Shown here piece by piece: positions 1-15,378 of a stretch of 20,448 bases of DNA. Origin of the DNA: a virus; the IMG/VR virus record IMGVR_UViG_3300040806_001048, positions 1-20,448 of that record, one strand, 5' to 3'. The notes under the pieces are model-generated. The model ran no database searches. It had not been told where the DNA came from and worked only from the letters and a program-made list of their open reading frames with translations. Within the stretch, counting starts at the first letter, position 1. Each line of letters opens with the position of its first letter. Made by a program: the position numbers and the translations under genes.

Positions 1-44
1 CTATGCGCAGCAAGTATGCCCAGGGCAGGGGCTGGGGCTACTGA
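1..44 (+). CDS. C-terminal end of an upstream gene (partial)
   Basis: Reading from base 3 gives the short open stretch MRSKYAQGRGWGY followed by TGA at 42-44. That stop shares its last base with the ATG of the next gene (TGATG), the same coupling seen at several other junctions here, which is the main reason to believe this is the tail of a real gene. The in-frame ATG at base 3 is probably internal. The Gly/aromatic-rich end is too short to assign a function. It could also be a chance open stretch. Confidence 0.5.
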   Translation, partial: MRSKYAQGRGWGY

Positions 45-2557
45 TGATCGGTGTCGGTAGAGCAGCGCGCGTTGTCGGCACGGCTACGGTCACGGATGCG
101 TGGCGTACCGATGCCGATACGCAGTTCGCGCAGTGGGCTTCCGTGTCGAAATACGACCCGGGGGTCAACGAGGGCGCAGCTGTCTACGACACCAAGCACT
201 ACTACACCCGTTTTCTGGCTGATACGGCTGGGACGTTCGACTTCTACGTGCAGTTGAGTGGCCCAGCTACGGGTAGAGAGCGTATTCGGTGGTCAATCGA
301 CGGCGCAGACACCGATTTTGTCGAGTTTGACCAGACGCGAGTCAACGACAGCGGCGTTTTGGAGCTCGCGCCGACGAAAGGGCGCGATCAGGTGCGTTTC
401 CGAGCCACGATCAAGGAGCGCAACGGCTGGTTCCACCCCCGTCGCATGGTTTTGACGCTCGATAGCGCCGATCAGTGCGAGCTTGTCGACGGTCCGACGA
501 CTCTGGTGCTCATTATCTACAGCCGCAAGGACCCGCCGCGCATCACGCTGACCGGCGGCCCGTTGACGATGGGTGTCGGTGGCACGGACGACTGTGACTT
601 CAACGTGGTGGACAGCACTGGTGCTGCCTACACCATGGCCAACCTGATTGACCCCATTACGGTGTACTTCCGTGTTTACCAGACTTCTGACACCTGGAAG
701 ACGCCTCTGCCCGACGTTATCCGCATTGACGGCGACCCAGAAACGGACCCGCGCGATCAGAAGGTCACGTTCACCTCTGCGAGCCCTGCGACGCAGAATG
801 TTACGTTCATTGCGTACAGCGGCAGCGGCAGCTACACGCTGGAAGCGCTCATTGAGCGCGGGTCGCTGAAGTACGCGGCCGAGCAGTTCGACGCGGACAC
901 CGGCATCAAGAACCTGACTGGGTACTACGTCCACCGCGACGAGAACCAGTGGTGCTTTAGCAACGACTTCGCCCGCCTGCGGCAGGACAACTACGGTCTA
1001 TACGACAAAGACGGATGGCACCCCGGTTACCCGACTGGCTATGGATTTGGCGGGCATACCACGACGACCGACGCACAGGATTTCGTACGTTTCGAGACCC
1101 AGAGTGCTGTGACTCCAGTGACGGACCCGATCACGGGGAACTCGATGGAGTGGTGGGTCAACACGGCCCAAGTCACCGCTGGGCCCAGCTATACAAGACA
1201 GCTCTTTACCGTGCAGTACTGCGGTGGGCCATGGATCGGTCACGTCCCCCCCGGCGCTGGTGAGAACTTTGTGCGTGCTGCGTATCGCTTTGAGCCGTTT
1301 AAGAGCGAGGACGCGGACCACCAGCACGAGGTGATGAGCGTTGGCTACCGCGCGCGTCAGGTGGCGCGTAGCAGCAGCGTGCAGTTCAGGGCGCGGAACG
1401 TGGTCGGCGCTAACGGTCACGGCACGTTTGGCCCTCAGGACCAGCCCTACATTGCGTGGACACAGAACACCGTTGGTGTTGCAGGCGATTCGATCACCAT
1501 CACCGACTACGAGGGCACATCTGCCACCTTTACCGCAGGTGCGGAATACGCAGTCGGCTCTACTGCGGACGACACTGCGCAAAACATCGTAGACGCCGTT
1601 AACGGGTCGTCTCTCAAAGTAATTGCTCTAAAGGCCGGGTCGACTGTTGCCGTTAAGCAGGGCGAGGTAAACGGCACGCACCCCGGAGTACCGGCATACA
1701 ACGCTTCTGGCGACCATACAGACCGCCTAGCCGCCACAGGTGGTGGCTTCGATTCGCGAGTGACCTTTCTAACGTCCAAGAGGTTCGTTTCTACGGCTAT
1801 TGTAGACGCCTCTGGCAACGACTGCCGACCGACTGCTGTCGGCGGTACGACCGGCGAGTACTACTACGACTCCGAGACCGGCACCGAGCTGTGGTTCTGG
1901 TCGATGAAGAACATGTGGGGTCGTCAGCTGAACGCGACCGTGTCCGGCATTCTGACCAACAGCGCCCCCGAGCGCCTGACGCACTCGGCGTGGAACATCT
2001 GGTACGGCGTGCGGCGCGACCCGATCTGGGGCTTGACGCTGTGGATGGTCAACTACGTGCCGGATGAACCCGCGGCTTTTAATCCGACCCTGGCGTACGA
2101 CCATGAGCTGGTCTACCGCTACAACGACGGCGACGCGACTAACACCCGCTCGTTCAGCGCCTGGGGATACGACGGCACCCTGATTGACAGGACGCCCGCT
2201 GAGCCTGGGTGGCTGATCGAGAGCACTGAGACTGCGTACCAGCCGCTAGTGGATGACGGGTACGACACTGACGACTGCAAGGGCTGGGACTTTGCTGGAC
2301 ACAGCAAGTGCCTGATGGTGTTCAACCCGGTCTGGGTCAGCAACTTCGACGGCAGCGACGACATCGCGACGTTCAACAACGTCAAGACCAACAGCCTCGG
2401 CAACTTGATCCACAGCATCCAAATGCAGATCGACACTGAGGCTAACGTTGCCGGGTGGCCTGACTTCTTCCCTGCGCAGCTGTACAACTGGTGGAGCCCG
2501 CGCGGTAACTGCACGGCCTTCGACGACACCCGTCCAACCATTGCCATCACCGTCTAA
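44..2557 (+). CDS. Large virion-associated protein with Calx-beta-like domain (putative fibre or receptor-contact protein)
   Basis: This 837-residue protein has no family I can name over its full length. Residues about 55-165 read like a Calx-beta domain: a strand starting FDFYVQLSGP, a D-G-A-x-x-D-F segment, then a strand-rich stretch ending MVLTLDS and TTLVLIIYS. Residues about 482-590 contain an ITITD-x5-TF strand pair followed by TAQNIVDAVN, a module style common in phage structural proteins and matched in the adaptor gene at 10305-11378. Residues about 616-672 are crowded with Trp and Tyr. There is no signal peptide or membrane helix. The start at 44 overlaps the previous stop by one base, with only a G-rich, weak ribosome site upstream. 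It is coupled by TAATG to the next gene and lies two genes before terL. A tail fibre, decoration or host-contact role is inferred from the domains and the virion-gene context. Confidence 0.72.
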   Translation: MIGVGRAARVVGTATVTDAWRTDADTQFAQWASVSKYDPGVNEGAAVYDTKHYYTRFLADTAGTFDFYVQLSGPATGRERIRWSIDGADTDFVEFDQTRVNDSGVLELAPTKGRDQVRFRATIKERNGWFHPRRMVLTLDSADQCELVDGPTTLVLIIYSRKDPPRITLTGGPLTMGVGGTDDCDFNVVDSTGAAYTMANLIDPITVYFRVYQTSDTWKTPLPDVIRIDGDPETDPRDQKVTFTSASPATQNVTFIAYSGSGSYTLEALIERGSLKYAAEQFDADTGIKNLTGYYVHRDENQWCFSNDFARLRQDNYGLYDKDGWHPGYPTGYGFGGHTTTTDAQDFVRFETQSAVTPVTDPITGNSMEWWVNTAQVTAGPSYTRQLFTVQYCGGPWIGHVPPGAGENFVRAAYRFEPFKSEDADHQHEVMSVGYRARQVARSSSVQFRARNVVGANGHGTFGPQDQPYIAWTQNTVGVAGDSITITDYEGTSATFTAGAEYAVGSTADDTAQNIVDAVNGSSLKVIALKAGSTVAVKQGEVNGTHPGVPAYNASGDHTDRLAATGGGFDSRVTFLTSKRFVSTAIVDASGNDCRPTAVGGTTGEYYYDSETGTELWFWSMKNMWGRQLNATVSGILTNSAPERLTHSAWNIWYGVRRDPIWGLTLWMVNYVPDEPAAFNPTLAYDHELVYRYNDGDATNTRSFSAWGYDGTLIDRTPAEPGWLIESTETAYQPLVDDGYDTDDCKGWDFAGHSKCLMVFNPVWVSNFDGSDDIATFNNVKTNSLGNLIHSIQMQIDTEANVAGWPDFFPAQLYNWWSPRGNCTAFDDTRPTIAITV

Positions 2558-6318: not shown

Positions 6319-6613
6319 GAAGAGTAAGGGCACTATGCCCAAGCGCTTCTCTGTCAAGAGTGGTGATAAGTCGAAGTCGGGTGGCCTGACTGCTAAGGGT
6401 GTGGCGCGTTACCGTGCAGCCAACCCCGGTAGCAAGCTCAAGACTGCGGTGACCACTAAGCCCAGCAAGCTCAAGAAGGGCAGCAAGGCTGCTAAGCGCC
6501 GGGCGTCGTTCTGCAGCCGCATGAGTGGCATGAAGAAGAAGCTCACCAGCTCGAAGACGGCGAGCAACCCGAATTCGCGGATCAACAAGGCCCTGAGGAA
6601 GTGGAACTGCTGA
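6308..6613 (+). CDS. Small highly basic DUF6321-like protein
   Basis: This is a 101-residue protein starting at GTG 6308, overlapping the portal stop by 11 bases. It is extremely rich in Lys, Arg and Ser. The core SGGLTAKGVARYRAANPGS, then TTKPSKLKKGSKAAKRR, the SFCSRMSGM segment and the terminal ALRKWNC match my memory of the DUF6321 family, small proteins recurring in environmental phages. Its molecular role is unknown. The charge suggests nucleic acid binding, perhaps in packaging or within the capsid, which is inference. Two Cys residues (in SFCSR and the final position) are a family hallmark as I recall it. It sits in a run of three tiny genes between portal and scaffold and shares its stop with the next start (TGATG). 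Confidence 0.85.
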   Translation: MARKKSKGTMPKRFSVKSGDKSKSGGLTAKGVARYRAANPGSKLKTAVTTKPSKLKKGSKAAKRRASFCSRMSGMKKKLTSSKTASNPNSRINKALRKWNC

Positions 6614-6846
6614 TGGCGAACTCCGAGTACCGCAAGTACCACGCGAGCACCAGGGCTAAGAAGCAGCGTGCTCAGCGGAACCGCAACCGCCGCGAGATGG
6701 TCAAGGCCGGTCGCGCCCGCAAGGGCGACGGCATGGAGGTCGACCACAAGAAACCACTGTCCAAGGGTGGCTCCAACGGTAAGAAGAACCTGCGGATGGT
6801 CCCTAGGACAGTCAACCGGAAGAAACACACCAAGAGGAAAGCATGA
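6613..6846 (+). CDS. Small HNH-nuclease-like protein
   Basis: This is a 77-residue basic protein. The ATG at 6613 overlaps the previous stop by one base, with GAGGAAG at 6595-6601 upstream; an in-frame GTG at 6601 would add four residues and is less likely. The C-terminal half carries an HNH-like core: EVDHKKPLSKGGSNGKKNLR, where the Asp-His pair, the Pro, the Gly-Gly turn and the Asn-Leu pair correspond to the beta-beta-alpha metal motif. The usual zinc-binding Cys pairs are missing, and the final His/Asn position falls in VPRTVNRKK. HNH proteins beside packaging genes assist terminase cutting in some cos-type phages (HK97 gp74 is the known case). Whether this one does so is inference, and it could be a non-catalytic DNA-binding relic. 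Confidence 0.82.
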   Translation: MANSEYRKYHASTRAKKQRAQRNRNRREMVKAGRARKGDGMEVDHKKPLSKGGSNGKKNLRMVPRTVNRKKHTKRKA

Positions 6847-9780: not shown

Positions 9781-10305
9781 ATGAGCTATCTCAACCCGAA
9801 CGCCGGTCCCGACGAGTTTACTCAGGTCACTAAAGAGGTGTGCCGGGTTAAGACTGCGGGCACTAACACTGTTACCAAGGGCGACCTCGTGCCCATCCTC
9901 CCGTATGCGCCAGATCAGGATCTGTCTAAAGGTGGCTGGCGATTCGCTGTGTCTCCAGCAGCCAACCAAGGCGGCGAGCGCATCTGGGGCGTGGCACTGG
10001 AGGACGCTGGCAATAACGAATACTTTCGCTGCCAGATCGCTGGCGTCTGCAAAGTCAACGCCGTTGGCAAGCTAAGTGACGCCGTTACGCCGTCGTCGAA
10101 CGGAGCTGGACTGGTCCAGGGAACTGCTCTGACGTGCGACATGTCTGGCAGCATTACGTCTAGCACGGCGGCATACGAGGCCGTGACTGATGACGCAATT
10201 TTGTGTGTCGTGCTGTATGGCGCACAGGACATCGTTGCGCAAAACGCTACTGGGCAGACCACCGTGCTTCTTGCTGGTCCTACGTTCCCGCACCGCTCTC
10301 TGTAA
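9781..10305 (+). CDS. Putative second decoration-like protein
   Basis: This 174-residue protein is not recognised at family level. The middle contains RIWGVALEDAG, FRCQIAGVCKVNAVG and later DAILCVVLYGAQDIV, a strand order similar to the preceding gene (GVALIALEDV then FAIAGIVTAI). That suggests a shared small beta-barrel fold and perhaps an old duplication. The ATG at 9781 has no visible Shine-Dalgarno and begins 17 bases after a strong hairpin, unlike its neighbour with a perfect site, so it is probably translated less. It is coupled to the adaptor gene by TAATG. Alternative roles at this position include a head-completion protein. The existence of the gene is well supported, the function is not. 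Confidence 0.7.
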   Translation: MSYLNPNAGPDEFTQVTKEVCRVKTAGTNTVTKGDLVPILPYAPDQDLSKGGWRFAVSPAANQGGERIWGVALEDAGNNEYFRCQIAGVCKVNAVGKLSDAVTPSSNGAGLVQGTALTCDMSGSITSSTAAYEAVTDDAILCVVLYGAQDIVAQNATGQTTVLLAGPTFPHRSL

Positions 10306-11378
10306 TGGCACTCACCGCTAAGGAAGCGCTGGATCACGTCCGGCACGCGCTCAGCGCAGACAAGATGCCGTCCCTTGGCGGGCTGCGCATCCTGAACGAC
10401 GCTGGCGAGTACCTTGTGAACATGCACCCTTGGCGGTGGCTGGAAGGGGAGCAGGTTCGCCTCAGCCTGCTCCCTGACCAGCCTTACGTCTGGCTGCCTG
10501 AGAACGTGCACAGCGTGAACGCGCTGGTGGCCACGGACACCGTGAACGCCAACGTGACGTTTACGACGGCAGCAGAGTTGGCTCGCAGGCGCGCGTCAGT
10601 CATCAACACGTCGTTTCACTACTGGGCTGCGCTGGTGTACGCCAAGCGCGGCACCAAGAAGCGGTACAACTTCGAGTTCACGGGCGGCCACACTGGCGCG
10701 GCGCCGATGACTATTAGCGACTCAAGTCGCGTAGTCACATTCCGGTTCGACGCTGGCACCTCGACGGACACCGTCAGGTACAACTGCGGCTTTGCAGGTG
10801 ACCAGGCGAAAACAGCTCAGCGGCTCGTCAAGGCCATCAACGACGCTGGCATGGGATGCTACGCAGAGTACGACACTGACCTTGGGCTCGGAGGGTTTTG
10901 GGTCGAGTCGAGGTTTGAAGGCCTGGACGACAGCGATCACTTCTCTATCGACTATGCTGGTATTCCAAACCTCGGCCCCGTCGAAGTGACGAACGCCACG
11001 CACAAGGGCGCGTACCGTCCGCGACTGGACCTGTGGCCAACCCCGGGCACGTACGAGAAGAACGCCTTCACGGCGTACTACCGACGCGGCTGGGATCCGG
11101 TGCGCAGCGACGACGACGGGATCACCATCCCGAGCTTTGTCGAGCCGCTGTACATCAACCTCGTGCGTAACGTCGCTCTGGGATACGAGCGTGACGCCGA
11201 GGGCGACGTAGCCATGCGCTTGGGCAACGTGCGAAACAGCACCCTGTTCAACGACACCCGGCGCAGAGACAGCATGACCCAGAGCAACTTTGGGCCGCTG
11301 CAGAACGGTGCCGCTGTGTACGACTACGGTCTCAACGACCAGATGTGGAACTTCGACCAGACCGGGGGACCGCTCTGA
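10305..11378 (+). CDS. Head-tail adaptor, tail tubular protein A type, with inserted module
   Basis: Such adaptors bind below the portal and connect it to the nozzle (T7 gp11 and P22 gp4 are the models). The N-terminal helical part includes NDAGEYLVNMHPWRWLEGE (about 28-46), with its Trp-rich strand and YVWLPENVHSVNAL. The C-terminal part has RLDLWPTPGTY, YYRRGWDPV, then IPSFVEPLYINLVRNVALGYE, the typical closing strands and helix. Between them, residues about 125-235 form an extra module with MTISD-x5-TFRF (135-146) and TAQRLVKAIND (170-180), absent from small adaptors, which explains the 357-residue length. The ATG at 10305 overlaps the previous stop (TAATG). The open frame extends 34 codons further upstream, but that part lies in the previous gene and is rejected. 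No Shine-Dalgarno is visible, so coupling is likely. Confidence 0.78.
   Translation: MALTAKEALDHVRHALSADKMPSLGGLRILNDAGEYLVNMHPWRWLEGEQVRLSLLPDQPYVWLPENVHSVNALVATDTVNANVTFTTAAELARRRASVINTSFHYWAALVYAKRGTKKRYNFEFTGGHTGAAPMTISDSSRVVTFRFDAGTSTDTVRYNCGFAGDQAKTAQRLVKAINDAGMGCYAEYDTDLGLGGFWVESRFEGLDDSDHFSIDYAGIPNLGPVEVTNATHKGAYRPRLDLWPTPGTYEKNAFTAYYRRGWDPVRSDDDGITIPSFVEPLYINLVRNVALGYERDAEGDVAMRLGNVRNSTLFNDTRRRDSMTQSNFGPLQNGAAVYDYGLNDQMWNFDQTGGPL
10705..10998 (+). other. Inserted beta module within the adaptor gene
   Basis: This encodes roughly residues 134-231 of the adaptor. It is bounded by conserved adaptor segments and carries the TI-x-D, TF and TAQ-x-(I/L)V-x-A-(I/V)N pattern also found near residues 484-520 of the Calx-beta protein at 44-2557. 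Boundaries are approximate. Confidence 0.5.
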
Positions 11379-14296
11379 TGGCGATTCGCGACGGGCGTAG
11401 GCAGCAGAACGTAGACCTCCAGTACCCGTACGAGGGGCTAAGTGAGACGTACGCGTTCAGCGACCAGCCTGTCGGTACCACCAGAGACGAGCGCAACATG
11501 CGCAGCTTCGACCCCACCACGGGTCGTATGCGCGGTACGCAGCGCTCCGGCATCGAGCTGATGACTGGAGACGCCCCGGCCAACGGGTTCAGCAAGATCA
11601 GCTCGCTGGTCAGCGTCCAGCGCGAGGTCAACCCGTACAGCTGGTCGGTTCTGGCTACGGCGCAGAACGAGGCGACCATCGGGTTCGACCGTGAGCACCT
11701 GACCGATGGTCTGTCGAACTGCATCGACCTGCGGCGCGATACGTTTGACACGTACTGGGCACTCGCCGATGGTGGTGAGGTCGTCAAGCTGAACAGCGAC
11801 GGCGGCGTGGTCAAGCGCATCGACGTGACGGCTGACGACGTCAATGAGCTGTACCCGCGACGCTTAGCCGTCGATGACTACGGCAACTTCTTTGTAGCCA
11901 GCGGCCAGATCAGTGGGCACGCGACGATCGACAACGAGCGCGCATGGGTTAAAGGTTACGAGCTACAGGCGGATGGCGAGTACAAGCTTGCTTGGACGAT
12001 CAAGCCGGACTTCCATGTGCTCGACCTGCAGACGTATGGGCGAGACCTGTACGTCTTTGGCATCCACTTCCACCACAACGAGTCTCAGTGCCGTTGGGAG
12101 TTCCGGCGTTACGCAGAGTACGTGTTCGACGAGGAGCCTGAGGCTGAACCGAACAGCACGTGGACGAAGAACTACCACACTGGCAACGACTACCACTGGA
12201 CGGTCAATCCGTACTTTGTCGGCAGCATGGCCATTCGCGGTGATGGCGACGCCTACGTGTGCGGTTCAGTGGTGAACCAAGAGTCTGGCGACGACAACTT
12301 TGCGAAGTACTGGATGATGGCGCGGCTGTCACCAATTAGTACTGACGCCGCTAACGAGCAGTGGTTTCAAGAGGCCGAATACACAAGCGTTAACGCAGAC
12401 GACCACGGCTGGGGCCTGTCTGTGCGCGTGGCAGAGGACAAGGCGACCGATGGCTCGTACGTGCTGCTCTGCTGTGGCGGCACGAGCAACAGCGCTGGGC
12501 AGGATCACGTCAGCGTCTGGTCAGAGGTGGGCAACACGCCGACCAAGAAAGCCGGGCTGAGCTTCGACAACGGAGTCGTCTGCCAAGGGTGGGCGATCAA
12601 CGCAGCCCCCGGTGCAGAGCGCATCCGCACCGCCATCGACGAGAACGGCAACTTCTACGTGCCGTACCACGGGACGGACGCCAACAGCGTCTACAACGGC
12701 AAGAACTTGCTGATCTTCCAGTGGCAGGAGGGCCCGTCGTGGACAATGACGCTGACGCGTTCGGAGACGGACTCGGACCTGGGCCTCATCCAGACCTCGG
12801 TCAACTGCGTAGCTGTCCCGATCGCTGTCCCCGACTACAACGGCGGCTCGCAGACCTACGTGGATCGTGTTGTGACCGGCGGCACGCCGCAAACGAGCAC
12901 CGAACCTAACGACAGCGTGTGCATCGCGCTGCTGGCTACGGCCAAAGTTAGCGCCAGCCTGCCTGTTCGCGAGGTGCGCAACGTCGCTACCTGTGGCGGG
13001 AACTGGTACGAGTACACCTCTAGCGGCTACACGCTGCTCAACGACGGTAGCGCTCCTATTAGCTACAACGCCGACGCGCCGTACATTAGCTCAACTACGG
13101 CGTCTGGCATCGCTGTGTTCAGCGACGGCTCGCGGTACTACTACTACAACCCCAAGGACCGGGTCATCACCAAGATGCGCTCGCAGTCCAACGGGTACAT
13201 CCCTCCGCGCTGTCGGCTGGTGTCGTTCTGGCGTGGGCGTCTGGTGCTGGCCCGCAGCGACGAGACTCCCGGGGCTTGGCACATGAGCCGCGTCGGAAAG
13301 CCGTTTGACTGGGACGAGTTCCCGCCTATCCCCGATGCCGGGGCAGCGGTGAGCAACGTCACCTCGAAGGCTGGCTTGTGCCCTGACAGCATCAACACGA
13401 TTGTCCCGTACAAGGACGACGTGCTCTGGTTCGGCTGTGACCGCAGTATCTACCAAATGTCCGGTGACCCCGGCGCTGGTGGCAGCTTCGACCTTGTGAG
13501 CGACGAGATTGGCATGTCATTCGGCAAGCCGTGGTGCAAGGACGACGCTGGTCGGCTGTGGTTCTTCGGCTCCAAGGGTGGCCTGTACACGATGGCGCCC
13601 GGCACTGGCCTGCAGGACGTCAGCCTCGGGCGCGTGCGCAAGCGCATGCAGAACATCGACCTTGAGACGCACTACGTCGAGCTGGTCTACAACTTCATCG
13701 ACGACGGCGTGCACGTGTTCGTTATGCCGTTCGCTAACCCCGGCATCATCGTCGACCACTACTTCTACAGCAAGCGGACCAACTCGTTCCACGTGGACCG
13801 CTTTGGCCGCAACACAGGCGATGGCATCCAGCCGACAGCAGCCATGATCGTAGACGGCGACAGCCCTGCTGATCGAGTCATGCACATCGGCTGCGAGGAT
13901 GGGCGCATTCGCAAGTGGGGTCAGACCGAGTCCAGCGAGGTGCCTAAGGGTGACCGCGTGCTGTCGAACAAGTACCTGCCTATCGACAGCTACGTCCTGA
14001 TGGGCCCGATCGCGCCGAACAGGGACATGGACGTCCACGCTGTTGGCTCGCTGACCGTCGTGCTGGCTCCGAACTACAGCGGCTGCAACTACGAGTTCTA
14101 CGAGACCGACAACGCGGCCAAGCTAGGCGACCCCCTGGAGTCTGGGGAGTTGCAGGCTGGACGTAACGGCACGCACATGGTGCGGGTCAGTGGCGACAGC
14201 ATTTACCTGATGCTGCGCAACGCCCGTGAGCAGGAGACGTGGAGCTACGAGAAGGGGCAGGTCCACGTGAGCTACGCCGGGGGTATCCGAGCGTGA
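11378..14296 (+). CDS. Tail nozzle, tail tubular protein B type, with propeller-like repeats
   Basis: This 972-residue protein directly follows the adaptor, as gp12 follows gp11 in T7. The N-terminus (DQPVGTTRDERNMRSFDPTTGRMRGTQRSG) resembles the opening of nozzle proteins that dock on the adaptor. The body contains propeller-like strands: LAVDDYGNFFVAS near residue 163, AIRGDGDAYVCGS near 285, TAIDENGNFYVPY near 418, and further strands around AVFSDGSRYYYYNP. The C-terminal region (DRVMHIGCEDGRIRKWG onwards) is again beta-rich. It would form the hexameric tube tip through which DNA passes. The ATG overlaps the adaptor stop (TGATG) with GGGGGA nine bases upstream; the frame is open 11 codons further upstream, but that part overlaps the adaptor. 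It is longer than T7 gp12 (about 800 residues). Assignment is by position, size and repeat style. Confidence 0.75.
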   Translation: MAIRDGRRQQNVDLQYPYEGLSETYAFSDQPVGTTRDERNMRSFDPTTGRMRGTQRSGIELMTGDAPANGFSKISSLVSVQREVNPYSWSVLATAQNEATIGFDREHLTDGLSNCIDLRRDTFDTYWALADGGEVVKLNSDGGVVKRIDVTADDVNELYPRRLAVDDYGNFFVASGQISGHATIDNERAWVKGYELQADGEYKLAWTIKPDFHVLDLQTYGRDLYVFGIHFHHNESQCRWEFRRYAEYVFDEEPEAEPNSTWTKNYHTGNDYHWTVNPYFVGSMAIRGDGDAYVCGSVVNQESGDDNFAKYWMMARLSPISTDAANEQWFQEAEYTSVNADDHGWGLSVRVAEDKATDGSYVLLCCGGTSNSAGQDHVSVWSEVGNTPTKKAGLSFDNGVVCQGWAINAAPGAERIRTAIDENGNFYVPYHGTDANSVYNGKNLLIFQWQEGPSWTMTLTRSETDSDLGLIQTSVNCVAVPIAVPDYNGGSQTYVDRVVTGGTPQTSTEPNDSVCIALLATAKVSASLPVREVRNVATCGGNWYEYTSSGYTLLNDGSAPISYNADAPYISSTTASGIAVFSDGSRYYYYNPKDRVITKMRSQSNGYIPPRCRLVSFWRGRLVLARSDETPGAWHMSRVGKPFDWDEFPPIPDAGAAVSNVTSKAGLCPDSINTIVPYKDDVLWFGCDRSIYQMSGDPGAGGSFDLVSDEIGMSFGKPWCKDDAGRLWFFGSKGGLYTMAPGTGLQDVSLGRVRKRMQNIDLETHYVELVYNFIDDGVHVFVMPFANPGIIVDHYFYSKRTNSFHVDRFGRNTGDGIQPTAAMIVDGDSPADRVMHIGCEDGRIRKWGQTESSEVPKGDRVLSNKYLPIDSYVLMGPIAPNRDMDVHAVGSLTVVLAPNYSGCNYEFYETDNAAKLGDPLESGELQAGRNGTHMVRVSGDSIYLMLRNAREQETWSYEKGQVHVSYAGGIRA

Positions 14297-15378
14297 GCTT
14301 TGTCCCGCGCGAAGAGCGGGCACGCCGGTCGCGTCAGGCTCAGTTCGCTAACGGGCAGCGACCCGGTGGTAGCGATGTAGACCCCAGGCAGCGTCGCTCG
14401 TCTGAGGCGGAGCTGCAGACCAGCCAGCGCGTCGGTGATGGTCAGGAGGTCGACGCCAATGGTCGTGCGCAGGTGCGCAAGGACAACACAATCACGGTCG
14501 ACAGCCGCAACCGGCACGCTGTTGTGCCTGACAACCTGCGGTTTGTGACGCCTACTGACGGCACACAGGCAGCTAACAAGGACTATGTGGACGCTGCGCT
14601 AGCGGACCTCACGATTTTAGGCGACAGCGAGTACGTAGCCGAGAACAGTACGGTGCAAGGCACGTCTGCCGTAACGGTGTGGACATCAGCTGGGGCGTCT
14701 GTGTTGTCGTCATTTAACAACGTTGTGTCGCCAACGAACGCTTCAGCGGTATACGCCATTCTGACGCATACTGGCACTGGCGATACGTCGATACAACTCG
14801 CTCCGGGCTACTACTATGAGGTTGATACCTCGCTTCGCTGCTACAACGCAGGCTTTGAAATTGGGCTTGCCTACAGCCCAAGCATTAGCGCGACTAGCTG
14901 GAACAGCGACATCAGGACAATCCGGTTTGGCGGCGCTGGCACGGATCTGACGACCTACGCCATACTTGACAACACCGCAGGCTCGTACACGTACATTACG
15001 CCTCGGTTCAGGCGGTTTGCATCTGGCACAACCCAGCTGTCGTCGATGCGCCTGCGCATCCGAAGGCTCGTGCCGCATTACAAGGGCGCATACGAGGCTC
15101 TGCCGTTGCCCCCTCCGGTGGCCGCACCTGTGGCCGAGTTTGAGGGCGACCCGCTGTCAATCGCCGCCGGAGGTAACGTGCAGTTTGCTAACCTGTCTAC
15201 GGGGCACGTGCATACCTTCCTGTGGGATTTTGGCGATGGCACTAGCGGGCCTCTTAACGCGCAGGAGAACCCTCTCAAGACCTACGCCCTAGCGGGCACC
15301 TACACCGTGTCGCTGACCGTTACTGGCGACGGCGGCAGCGACACCGAAACCAAGACCTCTTACATCACGGTGACATAA
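14293..15378 (+). CDS. Fibre-like protein with C-terminal PKD domain
   Basis: This is a 361-residue protein from GTG 14293, which overlaps the nozzle stop (GTGA); a G-rich stretch (CGGGGGT) precedes it. Residues 1-75 are charged, Gln/Arg-rich and probably disordered, suited to anchoring. GTQAANKDYVDAAL (about 90-103, Asn95-Asp100) is the motif that opens many phage fibre shaft or head domains. Residues about 105-265 look like a beta-rich middle domain. Residues 280-361 are a PKD domain with WDFGDG at 311-316 and the closing GTYTVSLTVTGDGGS and YITVT strands. PKD folds are surface-exposed adhesion or spacer modules. A short tail fibre, an adaptor for fibres or a tail appendage is likely. It is not long enough to be a full receptor-binding spike. 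The middle region uses less biased codons than the nozzle. Confidence 0.75.
   Translation: MSFVPREERARRSRQAQFANGQRPGGSDVDPRQRRSSEAELQTSQRVGDGQEVDANGRAQVRKDNTITVDSRNRHAVVPDNLRFVTPTDGTQAANKDYVDAALADLTILGDSEYVAENSTVQGTSAVTVWTSAGASVLSSFNNVVSPTNASAVYAILTHTGTGDTSIQLAPGYYYEVDTSLRCYNAGFEIGLAYSPSISATSWNSDIRTIRFGGAGTDLTTYAILDNTAGSYTYITPRFRRFASGTTQLSSMRLRIRRLVPHYKGAYEALPLPPPVAAPVAEFEGDPLSIAAGGNVQFANLSTGHVHTFLWDFGDGTSGPLNAQENPLKTYALAGTYTVSLTVTGDGGSDTETKTSYITVT

Follow-up and report, generated by a model that had tools for sequence, protein, structure and literature searches.

A predicted tail-sheath/FliD-type domain inserted in a podophage head-tail adaptor

The DNA analysed here (the 'window') is a virus record of 20,448 bases with a run of head and tail genes, one of which encodes a head-tail adaptor of 357 residues (10305..11378, + strand). 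This adaptor is confidently predicted to carry, inserted in its core, a domain that folds like the lateral domain of tail sheaths and like domain D2 of the flagellar cap protein FliD. The insertion, an old one, has become fixed in the clade to which the phage belongs; as judged from sequence comparisons, the domain nevertheless moves, by replacement with divergent alleles, within an exchanged cassette of a second protein that carries a relative of it, and by copying into the nozzle protein of one related phage. The reading that we consider probable is that of an SU10/T7-type adaptor, with the domain set in a hairpin of its fibre dock, where it would form a mobile, exposed accessory platform for appendages.

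Background

The lateral domain of contractile tail sheaths has been described as a seven-stranded beta-sandwich with a helix, and the same domain has been recorded in podovirus nozzle proteins, auxiliary capsid proteins, FliD and flagellin (passages of PMC12846349). Given that list, the recurrence of the domain among virion proteins and FliD was already known; adaptors do not figure in the same listing, and the word 'adaptor' does not occur in the main text of that source. The insertion domain of the XM1 sheath has been noted to resemble a FliD domain, with a suggestion of transfer from host to phage (in a passage of PMC10457771), and the roles of extra sheath domains in adhesion or stability are discussed in part of PMC9230969. 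The FliD domain is likewise an insertion in a loop (from a section of PMC5072837).

Three parts have been described in the adaptors of T7 and SU10, namely the helix bundle, the fibre dock and the embracing C-terminus (sections of PMC6702177 and PMC9509320). The dock is the seat of the fibres (same sections of both sources) and, in T7, takes the form of a small five-stranded jelly-roll barrel (PMC6702177, same section). As far as searches of the open-licence literature show, an adaptor with this domain in its fibre dock, the fixation of the domain across a clade, the replacement of its alleles and its copy in a nozzle protein have not been met before.

The adaptor gene and its core

The gene run of the window opens with the protein encoded at 44-2557, a 149-aa protein, the terminase, the portal protein (SU10_portal, PF23899), a small HNH protein, the scaffold and the capsid protein, and continues with two small proteins, the adaptor, the nozzle, a PKD protein and later genes. 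The HNH protein (6601-6846; PF01844, above cut-off) is encoded between the portal and scaffold genes. The PKD protein (14341-15378) has a C-terminal PKD domain (PF18911, E 1.9e-17) and varies more among relatives than the product of the adjoining nozzle gene, with an identity of 73% in relative L001 and 39% in L003. The adaptor gene, which starts with an ATG at 10305 (relatives begin at the same site), lies between the capsid gene and the nozzle gene (11441..14296, + strand), as is the case for head-tail adaptors of the SU10/T7 type.

An AlphaFold2 model built on 19 adaptors (mean pLDDT 77), compared by VIA-align with its Foldseek matches, splits into a core and a module. The core is made of an N-terminal part (10305..10652, + strand) with helices at residues 5-15 and 26-40 and the first strands of the dock, and of a C-terminal part (11013..11378, + strand) with the last dock strands, further helices and a tail of low confidence at residues 328-357. 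Among the matches listed, it matches podophage adaptors of 181-243 aa across model residues 1-346, with Z scores of 13.3 for cyanophage A4, 12.8 for KHP30, 12.4 for Pa223, 11.5 for SU10, 10.5 for N4 and 8.1 for T7; the model thus contains the helix bundle and fibre-dock fold of the SU10/T7-type adaptor (Z up to 13.3). The window's protein resembles gp11 of SU10 and of T7 in this core fold (Z 11.5 and 8.1) and in its place in the gene order, after the capsid gene, and differs from both in its inserted domain of about 120 residues. Because T7 gp11 has 196 residues and SU10 gp11 250, the window's adaptor (357 residues) is longer by approximately one domain, and the preliminary description was right to single out its unusual length.

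At the level of sequence, five of ten relatives scanned pass the 27-bit cut-off of the SU10_adaptor family (PF24175), which does not report the window's own protein at E values up to 1; that protein reaches no Pfam or PHROG cut-off. Alignment of the core with the single SU10 and T7 sequences (hhalign) falls short of significance (P 0.18 and 0.42, respectively), so the exact point of insertion rests on the model, in which the module is bounded by strands 105-114 and 237-244 of the adaptor's beta part and would extend a hairpin of the fibre dock. A tblastn search of 50,697 phage records with the adaptor, the portal protein and the adaptor of relative L035 gave no match, and a search of PDB sequences with the adaptor and module profiles gave nothing relevant.

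The inserted domain

The module corresponds to residues 117-236 of the adaptor (10653..11012, + strand) and is predicted to be a beta-sandwich with one helix, of the sheath-lateral/FliD-D2 type, on the combined indications of AlphaFold2, VIA-align, hhalign and PHROG comparisons. The preliminary description had seen here a separate domain, which the model bears out, and had delimited it at 10705-10998; its three motifs lie where they were placed (MTISD at 10707, TFRF at 10737 and TAQRLVKAIND at 10812), but position 10705 misses the reading frame by one base, and the natural module is the wider segment given above. The pLDDT of the module, taken in ten-residue blocks, is mostly 87-92, with the lowest value (63) near residues 201-210.

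When model residues 115-234 are compared alone, sheath domains score Z 6.9-10.6 among the matches listed: 10.6 for the A-1(L) sheath (rmsd 2.0 over 90 residues), 10.1 for PhiTE, 8.9 for Mu and 8.5 for Milano. FliD proteins follow with Z scores of 9.7 to 6.9, flagellin outer domains with 7.6 and the Kp9 nozzle (residues 145-247) with 7.3; no adaptor of solved structure with a domain of the sheath/FliD type is found among the matches listed. Profile comparison points in the same direction. The adaptor profile aligned with a profile of 12 Mu-type sheaths with a probability of 90 and P 1.7e-6 (hhalign; adaptor 115-216 to Mu 98-181), against P 0.2 for the reversed sheath and a best score of 27.5 for column-shuffled controls, compared with 55.3 observed; against the single A-1(L) sheath sequence the same profile was not significant (P 0.09). 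Nine of 15 modules match the tail-sheath family phrog_165 (best E 3.7e-6), and a search of 12 records for this family found it in five, once in each and always at the adaptor, with no sheath-family match elsewhere in the 12. Matches to Pfam stay below their cut-offs: for Flagellin_IN (PF07196) the module reaches 17.1 bits (cut-off 22.7 bits), and for Phage_sheath_domII (PF17481, cut-off 31.4 bits) one of ten relatives, L035, reaches 15.9 bits, with no match in the window record.

Taken together, these comparisons lead to the confident prediction that the adaptor module is folded like the lateral domain of tail sheaths and like FliD D2. With the lateral (or 'insertion') domain of type 2 contractile sheaths (Mu gpL, PhiTE, A-1(L), Milano, XM1) it shares both fold and profile, although that domain sits in contractile sheaths and the module in a podophage adaptor. 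With FliD D2 and the flagellin outer domain (Flagellin_IN, PF07196) it shares a likeness of fold and a weak motif match, although FliD D2 belongs to a flagellar protein and the module to a viral protein that lacks a flagellar context. The same beta-sandwich is reported from short-tailed phage virions, in podovirus nozzle and auxiliary capsid proteins (8i4m, 7ey9, 7qof, 8giu; listed in a passage of PMC12846349). A side observation concerns the sheaths themselves: the tail sheath of the Leptolyngbya phage Lbo402-yong5 (L146) is annotated with 386 aa, where the related sheath of the A-1(L) type (L133) has 506 aa, and being shorter it may lack the lateral domain.

A related module in the 837-residue protein

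The protein encoded at 44..2557 (+ strand; 837 aa) matches nothing in Pfam or PHROG better than chance would. It had been named after Calx-beta, a name that goes unsupported since no such Pfam match appears at E values up to 1. It had also been proposed to share the adaptor's module, and the motifs on which the proposal was built are in place (ITITD at 1493, ATF at 1523, TAQNIVDAVN at 1574). The plain pairwise likeness of the two modules is marginal (a Smith-Waterman score of 49, which 16 of 2000 shuffles also reach); between the whole adaptor and this protein, the best BLASTP match falls outside the module (E 0.013, adaptor residues 58-93). In view of this weak pairwise alignment, profiles were compared instead, one of 15 adaptor modules from relatives and one of six modules from the family of the 44-2557 protein (hhalign).

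The two profiles align with a probability of 90.6 and P 1.3e-6, over a segment of the protein that corresponds to 1442..1681 (+ strand); when the adaptor-module profile is run against the whole protein or family, the same stretch is the best place (P 5.4e-5). The best of 200 column-shuffled controls scored 17.2, compared with 42.3 observed; with the profiles reversed, or with 12 further protein families from the window, the probability did not exceed 1.6. Subsets of the second profile varied: P was 4.5e-5 for the window-type allele, 4.2e-5 for L020, 0.0013 for the L001-type allele and 0.046 for L018. When the open reading frames of 134 loci were searched at E below 0.01, the adaptor-module profile returned, beyond adaptors, only this stretch of the 44-2557 family and one nozzle protein; the reverse search returned, beyond its own family, only adaptors and the same nozzle. 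The module alone gave only tblastn matches with E above 0.05 against phage records, and only its own protein family against viral contigs. Its recurrence, which the preliminary description had proposed to examine by such a search, could therefore not be shown by tblastn and could be shown by profiles.

A model of the 44-2557 module from six sequences has a pLDDT of 46, in contrast to the confident prediction for the adaptor module; the part above 50 is ordered beta-beta-beta-alpha-beta-beta, like the adaptor module. Its top VIA rows name the same families (the PhiTE sheath with Z 5.5, Vibrio flagellins with 5.0 and the A-1(L) sheath with 4.7, below which FliD and the Kp9 nozzle are ranked), at Z scores of only about 3 to 5.5. 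These rows support the profile result without proving the fold of this module, for which PHROG and Pfam searches gave nothing significant. On the strength of the profiles, the adaptor module and the 44-2557 segment are clearly homologous. The shared module proposed earlier thus stands as homology; a special link between the two proteins is not supported, the domain being widespread in sheaths, nozzles and FliD.

Fixation, exchange and copying of the module

All 21 distinct adaptors for which both flanks are available carry the module, with 116-136 residues between the flanks (L005 and L069, cut off at contig ends, were left out), and the single adaptor found in a search of cellular genomes, which lies on a Flavobacteriales MAG contig of 3.5 kb, has it as well. 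The insertion is an old one, fixed in this clade, and not a recent import from the 44-2557 protein. In 119 of 120 adaptor pairs, drawn from 16 of the 19 rows of the adaptor alignment, conservation is lower in the module than in the core. Trees of core and module (with L067, L061, L005 and L069 left out) show supported conflicts as drawn, but AU tests fell below 0.05 in only one of six cases, and for that reason a conflict between the two is not claimed.

One exchange is seen between relatives L019 and L054. Over the 237 codons of the adaptor core they differ by eight synonymous and no non-synonymous changes, and over the 124 codons of the module by 36 synonymous and 16 non-synonymous changes; their adaptor DNA is 0.97-1.00 identical up to nucleotide 360 and from nucleotide 780 onward, and 0.62-0.92 identical in between. 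The excess at synonymous sites indicates the import of a divergent allele, rather than demonstrated selection. On a smaller scale, the adaptors of the window and of L001 differ at 16 of 120 module residues and at three of 237 core residues, probably through a small exchange. Separately, the small gene directly upstream of the adaptor (9781-10305 in the window) is swapped outright among near-identical relatives (L019, L054), with an identity that rises from about 0.4 to 1.0 where the start codon of the adaptor is reached.

In the 44-2557 family, the related module lies in a cassette (1379..1858, + strand) that exists as two alleles among relatives otherwise 97-100% identical. Between the window and L001, identity falls to 17-40% across approximately residues 450-590, and at the DNA level it drops to 0.25-0.63 across positions 1427-1880, approximately.

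A copy of the module is present in the nozzle protein of relative L025 (1317 aa), at residues 592-714 (L025:12722-13090; E 3.8e-20 with the module profile). It is 48% identical to the module of L025's own adaptor, the best of 15, with that of its near relative L063 next (47%), and sits in a variable region that falls between residues 206 and 333 of the window's nozzle. A recognisable module was found in this one nozzle of 17; the other 16, that of the window among them, show none. Locus L111 is named together with L025 for this copy. The nozzles of L057, L058, L060, L035 and L025 (about 950 to 1317 aa in total length) have a long variable region that does not align with approximately residues 155-510 of the window's nozzle.

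As far as sequence comparison can tell, then, the module moves, by allele replacement (L019/L054), as part of a cassette in the 44-2557 family and as a copy in the L025 nozzle. The shuffling of a virion-surface type of domain proposed at the outset survives in this form; a recent origin of the adaptor's module in the 44-2557 protein does not, in view of its presence in 21 of 21 adaptors.

Origin and role of the inserted domain

In the explanation that we favour as probable, a beta-hairpin of the fibre-dock part of an SU10/T7-type adaptor would have accepted an extra domain of the sheath-lateral/FliD-D2 type. If the adaptor forms a dodecamer as in SU10, the ring would carry twelve copies of the domain around the neck, placed outside the assembly core. 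Although its insertion in the adaptor is an old event and fixed in the clade, the domain evolves faster than the core, is replaced by divergent alleles and has been copied into other virion proteins, with a relative in the 44-2557 protein and a copy in the nozzle of one related phage. Its likeliest job would be that of an exposed platform at the fibre dock, by which peripheral appendages would be held or braced. Against this explanation, any tie between alleles of the module and particular fibres is hypothetical, and between L020 and L053 the upstream gene differs and the module does not. Also to be counted against it are the weak tree conflict (one of six AU tests), the single nozzle of 17 with a copy, the lack of a solved adaptor with this domain among the matches listed, the Pfam and PHROG cut-offs that the window's own adaptor does not reach, and the non-significant alignments of the core with SU10 and T7. 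Among the roles considered, the fibre dock is given the most weight, direct host contact less, and bracing of the neck less again.

A role in host contact, for which we see a lesser but real chance, would have the ring of exposed domains contribute weak attachment to glycans or protein of the cell surface, in line with a proposal made for the extra domains of sheaths. The module is of the same type as the sheath lateral domain for which a role in adhesion is put forward in part of PMC9230969; it diverges faster than the core and its alleles are exchanged, and the nozzle copy occupies a variable region (window-nozzle residues 206-333). The binding, its site and its ligand are putative, however, and the neck is distant from the distal end of the tail; moreover, the excess divergence between L019 and L054 includes synonymous sites and so speaks for import, not for demonstrated selection.

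It seems rather unlikely that the domain is instead a brace, strengthening the neck or the contacts between capsid and tail and having no partner outside the virion core. Such a role would have parallels in the extra sheath domain, which Novacek and co-workers, as quoted in a passage of PMC9230969, suggested to stabilise the sheath disc, and in the T7 adaptor, whose dock residues contact the portal (according to a section of PMC6702177). However, module identity lies below that of the core in 119 of the 120 pairs, unlike what would be expected if the module formed a conserved interface with the portal and capsid proteins, which are themselves highly conserved.

Two further possibilities bear on origin rather than role, and both are judged to be very improbable. 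The first is that ancestral adaptors already had the module and that it was lost outside the clade, in which case there was no insertion; its presence throughout the clade (21 of 21) is what such a history would give. Within the clade, this presence in every adaptor is also one of the outcomes that the preliminary description had named as refuting its own reading. Outside the clade, however, the solved adaptors listed (181-243 aa; T7, SU10, N4, KHP30, crAss001 and others) are not long enough to contain it, and the best BFVD match (A0A516LLD3; 247 aa, TM 0.71 by its own length) is shorter by about one domain. The second, marginally weaker still, is that chance or convergence of short motifs explains the likeness of the adaptor to the 44-2557 protein, for which the 16 in 2000 shuffles, the BLASTP match elsewhere, the pLDDT of 46 and the poorer P values of the L001-type allele and L018 could be cited, but against which stand the profile P of 1.3e-6 with clean controls, the reciprocal searches confined to adaptors, the 44-2557 family and one nozzle, and a model that, even though poor, places the PhiTE and A-1(L) sheaths and flagellins at the top, with FliD just below.

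Implications

Allele replacement and the nozzle copy catch the domain in the course of moving between virion proteins, and the natural set of domain swaps that results offers a way to probe the function of such common extra domains. A bolder extension, to which we give only a small chance, would treat a single sheath/FliD-type domain as an interchangeable surface tile, displayed as a ring of twelve on the adaptor and as copies on the 837-aa protein and on some nozzles, with alleles swapped or copied between genes. If that were true, the surface of the neck would be re-dressed while the assembly core stays untouched.
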